The notes beneath the pieces are model-generated. The model was given only the letters and a program-made list of their open reading frames with translations. It made no database searches and was not told where the DNA came from. Positions 6,818 to 21,105 of a stretch of 64,000 nt of DNA are shown here, piece after piece; the stretch's first letter is position 1, and each line of letters starts with the position of its first letter. The position numbers and the translations under genes were made by a program. Source of the DNA: Streptomyces ambofaciens ATCC 23877 (lineage in GTDB: Bacteria > Actinomycetota > Actinomycetes > Streptomycetales > Streptomycetaceae); NCBI RefSeq assembly GCF_001267885.1, contig NZ_CP012382.1:3831001-3895000 (forward strand), in the 5' to 3' direction.

Positions 6818-7150
6818 TCCCGGTGTGTGGTGCTGAGCAGGTTCCTTCAGACTACCCGTACAAAATTTCTACGCGCGTAGCATTGTAGGAAACTACGTGA
6901 GCCCCATCACGATCGGGCATCGGAAGGACGCCGCTTCGAAAAACTTCGGGAAAGATCCCGGATCGGGCTCGGCGGCCTATTGCGCGGCGGACACGCGGGG
7001 AGATTTAGTCGAGCTTCCCATTGCAATGCCGGGCACTGTACAAATGAAATGTCATTAGCCGATACTTTGCCCAATTACAGGCGAACAGTCGGCATCATCG
7101 CGACGTCCTGGCACGTCATCGCGAGGTGCCGCACGAAGGGACCGATATTC
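6818..7150. other. Divergent intergenic region between purS and lsrL
   Basis: 333 bp with no convincing gene. It must hold the purS promoter (minus) and the lsrL promoter (plus). The part next to purS (6860-6900) has two palindromes, listed separately. The part next to lsrL (about 6940-7150) is unusually A/T-rich for this genome, which would suit binding by Lsr2-type proteins, including LsrL itself. I could not fix a promoter with confidence. Confidence 0.5.
6869..6896. promoter_or_regulatory. Paired palindromes upstream of purS
   Basis: Two perfect inverted repeats stand side by side: CTACGCGCGTAG (6869-6880) and GTAG-GAAA-CTAC (6885-6896). They share CTAC/GTAG ends with a spacing of about one and a half helical turns between centres. 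This looks like a double operator in front of purSQL. The bound regulator is not identifiable from the sequence. Confidence 0.45.
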
Positions 7151-7468
7151 GTGGCGCAGCGTGTCGTGGTCACTCTCTTTGACGACATCGACGGCTCGGA
7201 AGCGGCGGAGACGATCGCCTTCGGTGTCGACGGCCGGATGTACGAGATCGACCTGAACGAAGCCAATGCCCGGAAACTGCGCACGGCCCTCGAGCCCTAC
7301 GTGTCGGCCGGCCGCAAGCGGTCGCGCTCCGGCAAGGCGTACCGGCAGACGGAGGTCGCCCCCGACCCGGCGGCGGTCCGGGCCTGGGCGCAGGCGAACA
7401 AGATGGACGTGCCCGCGCGGGGCCGGATCCCGAAGAAGGTGTACGAGGCGTTCACCGCGGCGCAGTGA
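7151..7468 (+). CDS. lsrL: Lsr2-like nucleoid-associated protein
   Basis: A 105-residue Lsr2 family protein that binds A/T-rich DNA and silences xenogeneic genes. The start is a GTG at 7151. The N-terminal dimerisation half is clear (AQRVVVTLFDDIDGSEAAET, then TIAFGVDGRMYEIDL). The C-terminal half carries the DNA-contacting Arg-Gly-Arg in PARGRIPKKVYEAF. The position opposite purS matches the second Lsr2 paralogue (LsrL) of Streptomyces as I remember it, rather than the main lsr2. Longer starts upstream would add A/T-rich sequence that does not look coding. Confidence 0.93.
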   Translation: MAQRVVVTLFDDIDGSEAAETIAFGVDGRMYEIDLNEANARKLRTALEPYVSAGRKRSRSGKAYRQTEVAPDPAAVRAWAQANKMDVPARGRIPKKVYEAFTAAQ

Positions 7469-7643
7469 GCCGGGCGCGGCGAGCCGCTCTCGCCGGGGAG
7501 CGGGTCGCGCCCGCTCCCCGCACGGAGGCCGACGGCCGCTCAGCCGCCCCTCGCGGCAACCGACTTGCGCAGCACCCCGGGTGATCAGCTAAAGTCTGGA
7601 GCACGCCGAGGGGCGAGGCCGAAAGGCCCAGCTCACGGAACAT

Positions 7644-7715
7644 GCGGGTGTAGTTCAGTAGTAGAACATCCCCCTTCCAGGGGGAAGGCGCAGTGTGCAA
7701 TTCCTGTCACCCGCT
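7644..7715 (+). tRNA. tRNA-Gly (anticodon TCC) with atypical D and T loops
   Basis: Acceptor arms GCGGGTG and CACCCGC pair fully with discriminator T7715. The anticodon stem TCCCC/GGGGA encloses CTTCCAG, giving anticodon TCC. CCA is not encoded. The tRNA departs from the norm: the D loop is AGTAGTA, so G18 is replaced by A, and the T loop is TGCAATT inside GTGC, so the usual T54-T55-C56 becomes T-G-C. The T stem pairs only if one U (7694) is bulged. A candidate promoter is TTGCGC at 7565 with TAAAGT at 7590. See findings. Confidence 0.85.
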
Positions 7716-7795
7716 CTGCATCGCCGTACCGATCAGCGTATTCGATCAGGTAGGCTGGTGCTCGCACCGATCGGTGAAGGCCGGTCGGGGGCAAT

Positions 7796-7868
7796 GCGGA
7801 CGTAGCTCAGTTGGTAGAGCGCAACCTTGCCAAGGTTGAGGTCGCGAGTTCGAGCCTCGTCGTCCGCT
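7796..7868 (+). tRNA. tRNA-Gly (anticodon GCC)
   Basis: A standard 73-nt cloverleaf: acceptor GCGGACG/CGTCCGC, D loop with GG, anticodon loop TTGCCAA (anticodon GCC), T loop TTCGAGC, discriminator T. CCA is not encoded. It differs at only three positions from the tRNA-Gly(GCC) at 11770 and is followed at once by a terminator. Confidence 0.95.
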
Positions 7869-7876
7869 CGGGAATC

Positions 7877-7908
7877 AGACCCCGGTCCCTCGTGGACCGG
7901 GGTCTTTT
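7877..7908 (+). terminator. Rho-independent terminator after the tRNA-Gly pair
   Basis: Stem GACCCCGGTCC / GGACCGGGGTC with a CTCGT loop, followed by TTTT. Confidence 0.9.
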
Positions 7909-8019: not shown

Positions 8020-8991
8020 ATGCGATCAGACGGACACGAACACGTGATTGAGGTCACCGGCCTGCGACGTGTGTACGGGGGCGGGTTCGAGGCCGTGCGC
8101 GGAATCGACTTCTCCGTGCGCCGCGGCGAGGTCTTCGCGCTGCTGGGCACCAACGGCGCGGGCAAGACGTCGACGGTGGAACTGCTGGAGGGCCTCGCCG
8201 CTCCGGCGGGCGGGCGGGTGCGCGTCCTCGGGCACGACCCGTACACCGAGCGGGCCGCCGTACGCCCCCGCACCGGCGTGATGCTCCAGGAGGGCGGCTT
8301 CCCGTCCGAGCTGACCGTCGCCGAGACCGCCCGGATGTGGGCGGGTTGCGTCAGCGGGGCACGGCCGCCGGCGGAGGTGCTGGCGGTGGTGGGCCTGGAG
8401 GCGAAGGCCGGCACCCGGGTGAAGCAGCTCTCCGGAGGCCAGCGGCGCCGCCTGGACCTGGCGCTCGCGCTGCTCGGCGACCCCGAGGTGCTCTTCCTGG
8501 ACGAGCCCAGCACCGGACTGGACGCCGAAGGCCGCCGGGACACCTGGGAGTTGGTGAGCGCGCTGCGCGACGGCGGCACGACGGTGCTGCTGACCACGCA
8601 CTACCTGGAAGAGGCCGAGAACCTCGCCGACCGGCTCGCGATCATGCACGAGGGCCGGATCGCCGCCACCGGCACCCCGGCCGAGGTGACCGCCGCGCAG
8701 CCCTCCCGGATCTCCTTCGAACTGCCCGACGGCTACTTCGTGGGCGATCTGCCGCCGCTCGGCGAGCTGGGTGTGAGCGACCACGAGGTCGACGGCCGGA
8801 TCGTCCGGCTGCGCACCCGTGAGCTGCAGCGCGCGGCCACCGGACTGCTCACGTGGGCCGCACGGGCCGGCGTGGAACTGCGCCGTCTGGACGTCCGGTC
8901 GGCGTCCCTGGAGGAGGCGTTCCTGGGGATCGCGAAGGAGGCGTCCGCGAGGACGGCCGAGGGAACGACGACGAAGGAGTACGCGGCATGA
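8020..8991 (+). CDS. ABC transporter ATP-binding protein (drug/ABC-2 type)
   Basis: A 323-residue ATPase. Walker A is GTNGAGKTS near residue 49, the signature is LSGGQRRRLDLALALL near 140, Walker B is VLFLDEPSTGLD near 160, and the H-loop is TTHYLEEAE near 195. The long C-terminal extension is typical of DrrA/CcmA-like exporter ATPases. The stop overlaps the start of the permease gene (ATGA), so the pair forms one exporter and is cotranscribed with the downstream two-component system. The exported compound cannot be read from sequence. Confidence 0.93.
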   Translation: MRSDGHEHVIEVTGLRRVYGGGFEAVRGIDFSVRRGEVFALLGTNGAGKTSTVELLEGLAAPAGGRVRVLGHDPYTERAAVRPRTGVMLQEGGFPSELTVAETARMWAGCVSGARPPAEVLAVVGLEAKAGTRVKQLSGGQRRRLDLALALLGDPEVLFLDEPSTGLDAEGRRDTWELVSALRDGGTTVLLTTHYLEEAENLADRLAIMHEGRIAATGTPAEVTAAQPSRISFELPDGYFVGDLPPLGELGVSDHEVDGRIVRLRTRELQRAATGLLTWAARAGVELRRLDVRSASLEEAFLGIAKEASARTAEGTTTKEYAA

Positions 8992-20943: not shown

Positions 20944-21009
20944 GCATACGAGGTTATAGGCGCCCACTGACAACCGGAGCGCCCTGTGAGCCCGGCCACC
21001 CCGTGAACG

Positions 21010-21105
21010 CAGGCGCCCCCCACGCACCCGCCAGAGCCGACCTACCCTTGCTGCCTTCCGGCCCTGGGGGAGTTCAGTCAGATAGCGCCGCGTGAGGGGC
21101 TGAGC
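21010..21105 (-). ncRNA. ffs: Signal recognition particle RNA (small 4.5S type)
   Basis: The minus strand carries the SRP54-binding hairpin core GGGCCGGAAGGCAGCAAGGG (around 21045-21068), flanked by long complementary arms (CCCCTCACGC near 21098 against GCGTGGGG near 21018). This is the bacterial SRP RNA, which with Ffh targets membrane proteins. Its position just upstream of dnaX on the same strand is the usual actinobacterial arrangement. Exact ends are estimated from the stem. Confidence 0.88.

Follow-up and report, generated by a model that had tools for sequence, protein, structure and literature searches.

The analysed window, a stretch of 64,000 nucleotides (G000:C1:3831001-3895000) of an 8.39 Mb genome, carries at 7644..7715 on the plus strand a gene for a tRNA-Gly with a UCC anticodon, here called the spare tRNA, which was characterised using Rfam cmscan, alignment of its copies, pair counts and the feature table. 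Across the genus, alignment of 61 upstream regions revealed two conserved, promoter-like blocks (7565..7595, plus strand), TTGC at 7565-7568 and TAAAGT at 7590-7595, the latter in the general form TA[AG]AGT; they were not flagged by a generic sigma-70 scan. The presumed transcribed leader (7596..7643, plus strand) contains a conserved ACGCCgagGGGc.aGgCCG block, as seen in the alignment, and a hairpin predicted by folding. Downstream on the same strand, an ordinary tRNA-Gly(GCC) at 7796..7868 (cmscan, ARAGORN, genus loci) is followed by an intrinsic-terminator-like hairpin at 7877..7905, detected in a sequence scan. The GCC gene lies downstream of the spare tRNA in 60 of 61 genus loci, the remaining contig ending before it, and is likewise the neighbour in G244, a genome from another genus of the same family, and in Mangrovactinospora.

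As further context, two plus-strand open frames were assigned by reading of the frames: that at 6980..7468 has a C-terminal part which we take to resemble the nucleoid protein Lsr2, and that at 8020..8991 is presumably an ABC-transporter ATPase. Cell-wall genes were not recognised among the frames adjoining the spare tRNA, and the closest FemAB gene lies about 150 kb away. Elsewhere in the window, a small bacterial SRP RNA (21009-21103, minus strand, 65.2 bits) adjoins a tRNA-Ser.

In the cmscan analysis (Rfam RF00005), the spare tRNA reached 53.5 bits against a curated threshold of 29 bits, conforming with membership in the tRNA family, and the model itself placed an extra unpaired U within the T stem. 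The value is below the 70.2 bits of the tRNA-Gly(GCC) next door; only 8 of the 72 tRNA matches of the genome score lower than the spare tRNA, and these are mostly matches of at least 77 bases or a truncated one. ARAGORN called no tRNA at 7644-7715, a miss that affects tRNA annotation. A first-pass annotation of the DNA had described an A at position 18, a G at position 55 and a bulged U in the T stem, all of which were confirmed, with A18 at 7660, G55 at 7697 and the bulged U at 7694, between positions 52 and 53 (tRNA numbering). The 51-63 pair is A-U (7692/7705). G19, C56 and G49-U65 are retained, U73 is present, the anticodon loop is intact, and a 3' CCA is absent from the gene sequence. Identity of tRNA-Gly is determined by G1-C72, C2-G71, G3-C70, U73, C35 and C36. 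Each of these is found in the spare tRNA and is invariant in 25 distinct forms from the genus, which were chosen by a pattern fixing most of the identity positions, a looser search giving the same set.

The DNA at 7600-7760 was matched in all 60 same-genus genomes of a first sample and in all 181 of a larger one, which overlaps the first and includes the genome under study (weakest best E-value 3.8e-18); together with the covariance score, this bears out the tRNA gene of the first-pass annotation. The tRNA sequence was read in 86 genus genomes, comprising the own genome, 60 others (71 copies in these 61 genomes) and 25 more. A18, G55, A51-U63 and the bulged base are kept in all of them, as are the D loop AGTAG[TC]A and the GTGC motif, the bulged base being T except for C in one genome. 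All 94 genus copies parsed for features, with overlapping loci counted repeatedly, carry the bulged base and A51-U63.

Among the 25 distinct forms, 56 of 72 columns are invariant, a count to be read with the selecting pattern in mind, which fixes many columns (the looser search found the same set). Both strands of the T stem, the acceptor stem, the anticodon and U73 are kept, and variation is found mainly in the anticodon and D stems, via compensating pairs. Pairing is retained in 99.6% of cells, and two-sided pair changes amount to 24 cells compared with 6.9 in shuffles, whereas the number of pairs with a two-sided change (4) is not above that in shuffles, 69 of 500 reaching it. Mean pairwise identity over 61 genomes is 0.93 for the tRNA versus 0.44 over the 70 nt upstream, 0.39 over the 60 nt that follow it and 0.35 over positions -130 to -71, the flank values being low estimates as the comparison was ungapped. 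Two or three copies of the spare tRNA lie in tandem in at least 6 of the 61 genomes. In G244, the only genome sampled from another genus of the family, the spare tRNA occupies the same place; A18, G55 and the bulge are unchanged, whereas both partners differ in two stem pairs, which are A3-U70 and A49-U65. Mangrovactinospora gilvigrisea (Streptomycetaceae; L252:6105) has a spare tRNA with a bulged G, A49-U65 and A51-U63. Pair 49-65 is G-U in the genus and A-U in these two relatives; at 51-63, A-U is found in every parsed copy from the genus.

A survey of the tRNA-Gly genes, as proposed in the first-pass annotation, revealed an ordinary UCC isoacceptor in the same genome (C1:2804913), besides a CCC and several GCC tRNA-Gly genes. 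The ordinary UCC pattern was found in 101 of 101 sampled genus genomes, once in each. This excludes the spare tRNA as sole UCC decoder and makes it unlikely that it is a barely functional decoder of GGA codons, as had been offered initially. The two UCC tRNAs share the anticodon, the acceptor identity positions and U73. The ordinary one has G18-G19, U55, G51-C63, C32-A38 and no bulge, whereas the spare tRNA has A18, G55, A51-U63, the bulge and either C32-G38 or U32-A38. GUUC is present in 50 of the 51 distinct tRNAs called by ARAGORN in the fetched loci of the own genome, the spare gene itself not being called. As a stand-alone mark, A51-U63 is weak, being shared by 11 of these 51 tRNAs, albeit that the five ordinary Gly tRNAs have G51-C63. 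A Watson-Crick pair at 32-38 was dropped as a mark of cell-wall tRNAs, as ordinary GCC and CCC tRNAs also carry U32-A38.

The one exception to GUUC is a second odd, tRNA-Gly(UCC)-like gene (L079:95-165, corresponding to G000:C1:3038394-3038463), which combines G55 with G18-G19, A51-U63 and a CTTCCCG loop and scores 41.3 bits. Genes of this type are dispersed, with a match in 51 of 101 genus genomes and up to 6 per genome, a few of the matches being weak; further copies are L127-L137. Twelve copies have a promoter-like part upstream and a terminator-like hairpin directly downstream, and their neighbours differ, except for genes common to L131, L135 and L137. None of these 12 loci was matched in Rfam's fast scan. 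The gene looks like a free-standing, tRNA-like cassette. In G061, a genome of the same order, a second UCC tRNA-Gly (L119:192-263) has the CTTCCCG loop and an odd T arm, but GG and GUUC as in ordinary tRNAs, and may be an intermediate form.

The exchange at positions 18 and 55 was found to be more widespread than the spare tRNA. Among 106 distinct tRNAs from Patescibacteria-like loci (six genomes plus L250 and L267), all 18 with G55 have A18, and all 88 others have GG. The 18 are Gly-UCC (8), Tyr (3), Gly-GCC (2), His (2), Phe (1), Met (1) and Arg (1), the last assigned by eye after the script had left it undecided. The loci concerned are L250, L267, L298, L300, L302, L303, L316, L318, L319 and L323, with other Patescibacteria. 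FemAB matches in the six genomes are weak to moderate. Positions 18 and 55 thus change together, on tRNAs that are expected to translate. The preferred view of A18-G55 is that of an alternative pair at the elbow. The initial view that the elbow contact is lost was correct in that G18 and U55 are gone; it did not stand as simple loss, because G19 and C56 are kept and 18/55 resembles a swapped pair. Nor was it supported that A18 and G55 alone remove a tRNA from translation; a rule to that effect was rejected, given that in Patescibacteria the pair is carried by tRNAs for Tyr, His, Phe, Met, Arg and Gly. The converse rule, that G55 always comes with A18, fails outside Patescibacteria. G55 occurs with G18-G19 in L272 (Omnitrophota, UCC), in L296 (Prevotella, CCC) and in the dispersed L079 gene; G55 tRNAs of Staphylococcus and Ruminococcus have other letters at 18-19, and L271 (Bacillota) has neither.

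These data bear on the possibility that the spare tRNA is an ordinary, though unusual, translation tRNA with a harmless A18-G55 elbow pair, which helps to decode GGA, perhaps under particular conditions. Besides the pairing in Patescibacteria, the intact anticodon loop is in its favour, as is the finding that in six Patescibacteria-like genomes the G55 UCC tRNA is the only UCC among model and pattern matches. However, the eight Patescibacteria-like tRNA-Gly(UCC) have G51-C63 without a bulge, in contrast to the bulge and A51-U63 of the parsed genus copies, and the genus has its ordinary UCC tRNA throughout. We therefore regard a role in translation as rather unlikely. The resemblance to the Patescibacteria tRNAs lies in the A18 with G55 exchange; there, it is found on several amino acids, and a second UCC tRNA was not found. 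The mark of the spare tRNA is its disturbed T stem, where EF-Tu binds.

Occurrence beyond the genus was surveyed in a class sample of 296 genomes with a pattern accepting any base but T at position 55 and requiring GCGG and CGCT ends, which misses variants such as the G244 copy. All 28 genus genomes contain real tRNAs of this pattern; among the 268 other class genomes, 4 matched solely in non-tRNA sequence, as judged by eye. A named scan excluding T before G53 gave at least 117 loci, of which at least 25 passed a cloverleaf filter, and L252 (Mangrovactinospora) was added to the filtered loci by hand. Among the matches listed, the filter was passed by nine from Staphylococcus/Mammaliicoccus, two from Ruminococcus, one from Propionibacteriaceae (UBA4569) and one from Intrasporangium, and also by eight Patescibacteria-like ones (including L170) and one each from Myxococcales, Agromyces, Bacillota and Omnitrophota. 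In phages, the spare tRNA was not matched.

In UBA4569, two Ruminococcus genomes and S. coagulans, a spare G55 UCC tRNA stands beside an ordinary one, with FemAB matches at 9.9e-30 or better. The spare tRNAs there have a weakened 51-63 pair (A-U, or a U.C mismatch in UBA4569), compared with G51-C63 in their ordinary UCC tRNAs. The co-occurrence in the Ruminococcus MAGs (L183, L245) suggests that this genus also has a wall fed by Gly-tRNA. Myxococcales L212 and Agromyces L221 carry a G55 UCC tRNA beside an ordinary one as well, with strong 51-63 pairs (G-C and C-G) and weak FemAB matches (1.1e-4 and 7.1e-8), which implies that a G55 spare need not mean a cell-wall function.

The A3gamma type of peptidoglycan has a Gly bridge and is that of Streptomyces. 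For Intrasporangium, the accessible part of PMC6113628 gives LL-A2pm and A3gamma peptidoglycan. Intrasporangium oryzae was found to carry an A18/G55 tRNA-Gly(UCC) (L257:5025-5098, minus strand), so that a tRNA of this kind is present in a second lineage of actinobacteria with LL-A2pm. It is like the genus form in its D loop AGTAGCA, which UBA4569 has too, its anticodon loop CTTCCAG and GTGC; it differs in having no bulge, its weak pairs at 50-64 and 51-63 being G-U wobbles.

Contacts between EF-Tu and tRNA involve the T stem, and because the affinity of EF-Tu for glycine is low, Gly tRNAs rely on this stem being strong. FemAB genes are present in 28 of 28 tested genus genomes; the own genome has two, and for the FemX-like one of 373 aa the best solved relative is 6snr, the FemX of S. 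aureus, at 3.3e-31. In S. coelicolor, addition of the single Gly branch is the work of FemX and, on D-Lac precursors, of VanK, according to the available portions of PMC4790382 and PMC6001138. Judged from sequence, it is fairly probable that the spare tRNA is a functional, dedicated tRNA-Gly(UCC) serving as Gly donor for FemX/VanK. With its acceptor end, U73 and C35-C36 intact, it would be charged by glycyl-tRNA synthetase; the bulged T stem and the weak 51-63 pair would render it a poor EF-Tu ligand, and the Gly-tRNA would stay free for FemX/VanK to attach a single glycine to the peptidoglycan stem peptide. GGA would be decoded by the ordinary UCC tRNA, present in every genus genome sampled, and A18 with G55 would probably maintain the elbow as an alternative pair instead of breaking it. 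The Mangrovactinospora and Intrasporangium loci raised our confidence in this donor role. Counting against it is G49-U65, a strong pair that is kept in the genus. The adjoining frames without a recognised cell-wall gene, the FemAB gene lying no closer than about 150 kb, the A18-G55 pair on Patescibacteria tRNAs that apparently translate, and the alternative hairpin predicted for the T arm also weigh against it. FemX does not need such a tRNA, since 106 of the 268 class genomes outside the genus carry FemAB genes but no tRNA of the class pattern, which requires the GCGG and CGCT ends. The part in cell-wall synthesis suggested by the first-pass annotation is consistent with the redundant UCC anticodon, the conserved odd features, GUGC, A51-U63 and the two FemAB genes, while the use by FemX is what we infer.

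Antibiotic pathways are patchy in distribution, whereas the spare tRNA occurs in every genus genome examined. This makes it improbable that the tRNA is a dedicated Gly donor for another Gly-tRNA-dependent enzyme, for example a FemX-like transferase in an antibiotic pathway, as does the presence of at least one FemAB gene in each of the 28 genus genomes, which does not imply the same gene throughout. Such an enzyme might be sought in the second FemAB gene of the own genome, and DhpK and Orf11 are described as using Gly-tRNA in the accessible text of PMC12945691.

Still less probable is a regulatory or decoy RNA that resembles a tRNA and acts, for example, via an alternative T-arm hairpin or fragments. 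In ViennaRNA predictions, such a hairpin was favoured by a mean of 1.7 kcal/mol (from -1.0 to 2.9); for 30 of the 31 distinct forms its pairing over columns 45-48/52-55 is possible, and conserved blocks also lie in the 5' leader. However, the acceptor stem, anticodon and U73 are conserved along with the two strands of the T stem, and the G105 form, inspected by eye, breaks the hairpin and leaves the T stem unchanged. Finally, a decaying pseudogene or sequencing artefact, with which the reduced covariance score and the ARAGORN miss would agree, is ruled out by the genus-wide presence, the compensating changes and the identity far above that of the flanks.

With the spare tRNA, the division of Gly-tRNA between translation and FemX/VanK in antibiotic-producing actinomycetes becomes testable. 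A Gly donor for FemX/VanK would, if true, explain how these bacteria split glycine between cell wall and protein. The spare tRNA is also relevant to the vancomycin response that depends on VanK in the model S. coelicolor and to the question of which nucleotides decide EF-Tu use. In a literature search, which covered full texts mostly without subscription papers, no title or abstract start dealt with a Streptomyces cell-wall tRNA-Gly. Reviews (including PMC4052509), in their accessible parts, name a dedicated cell-wall tRNA for Staphylococcus only, and text queries of the available portions of PMC4810234, PMC7912444 and PMC7609411 did not return A18 or G55.

In Staphylococcus, a non-proteinogenic tRNA-Gly(UCC) feeds the pentaglycine bridge (Giannouli 2009, as cited in the accessible parts of PMC4052509, PMC8007984 and PMC4810233). 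The cell-wall tRNAs of S. aureus have A49-U65, A51-U63 and UU or CU at 18-19, features linked to weak EF-Tu binding (PMC4052509, available portion). The likeness to these tRNAs noted in the first-pass annotation held for the UCC anticodon, A51-U63 and the T loop, where GUGC replaces GUUC in all copies read, and it extends to tandem copies, which were seen in several Staphylococcus loci. A spare tRNA beside an ordinary UCC isoacceptor, as with the staphylococcal type, was also found, and S. coagulans, the one staphylococcal genome tested, shows the same arrangement, with FemABX genes. The likeness did not hold for an alteration of both G18 and G19: the spare tRNA has A18-G19, position 18 alone being changed, whereas the staphylococcal tRNAs have pyrimidines at both positions. 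It further differs by G49-U65, kept in the genus, and by the bulged T-stem base, which staphylococcal tRNAs lack. We infer an origin separate from that of the staphylococcal tRNAs. Tentatively, and as a conjecture we hold less firmly than the donor role itself, bacteria whose wall bridges contain glycine may have invented dedicated cell-wall tRNA-Gly(UCC) several separate times, the Streptomyces-type route being a new one that combines a permanently bulged T stem in the EF-Tu footprint with an A18-G55 elbow, a second coherent elbow that replaces G18-U55 as a unit in several tRNA families of Patescibacteria.
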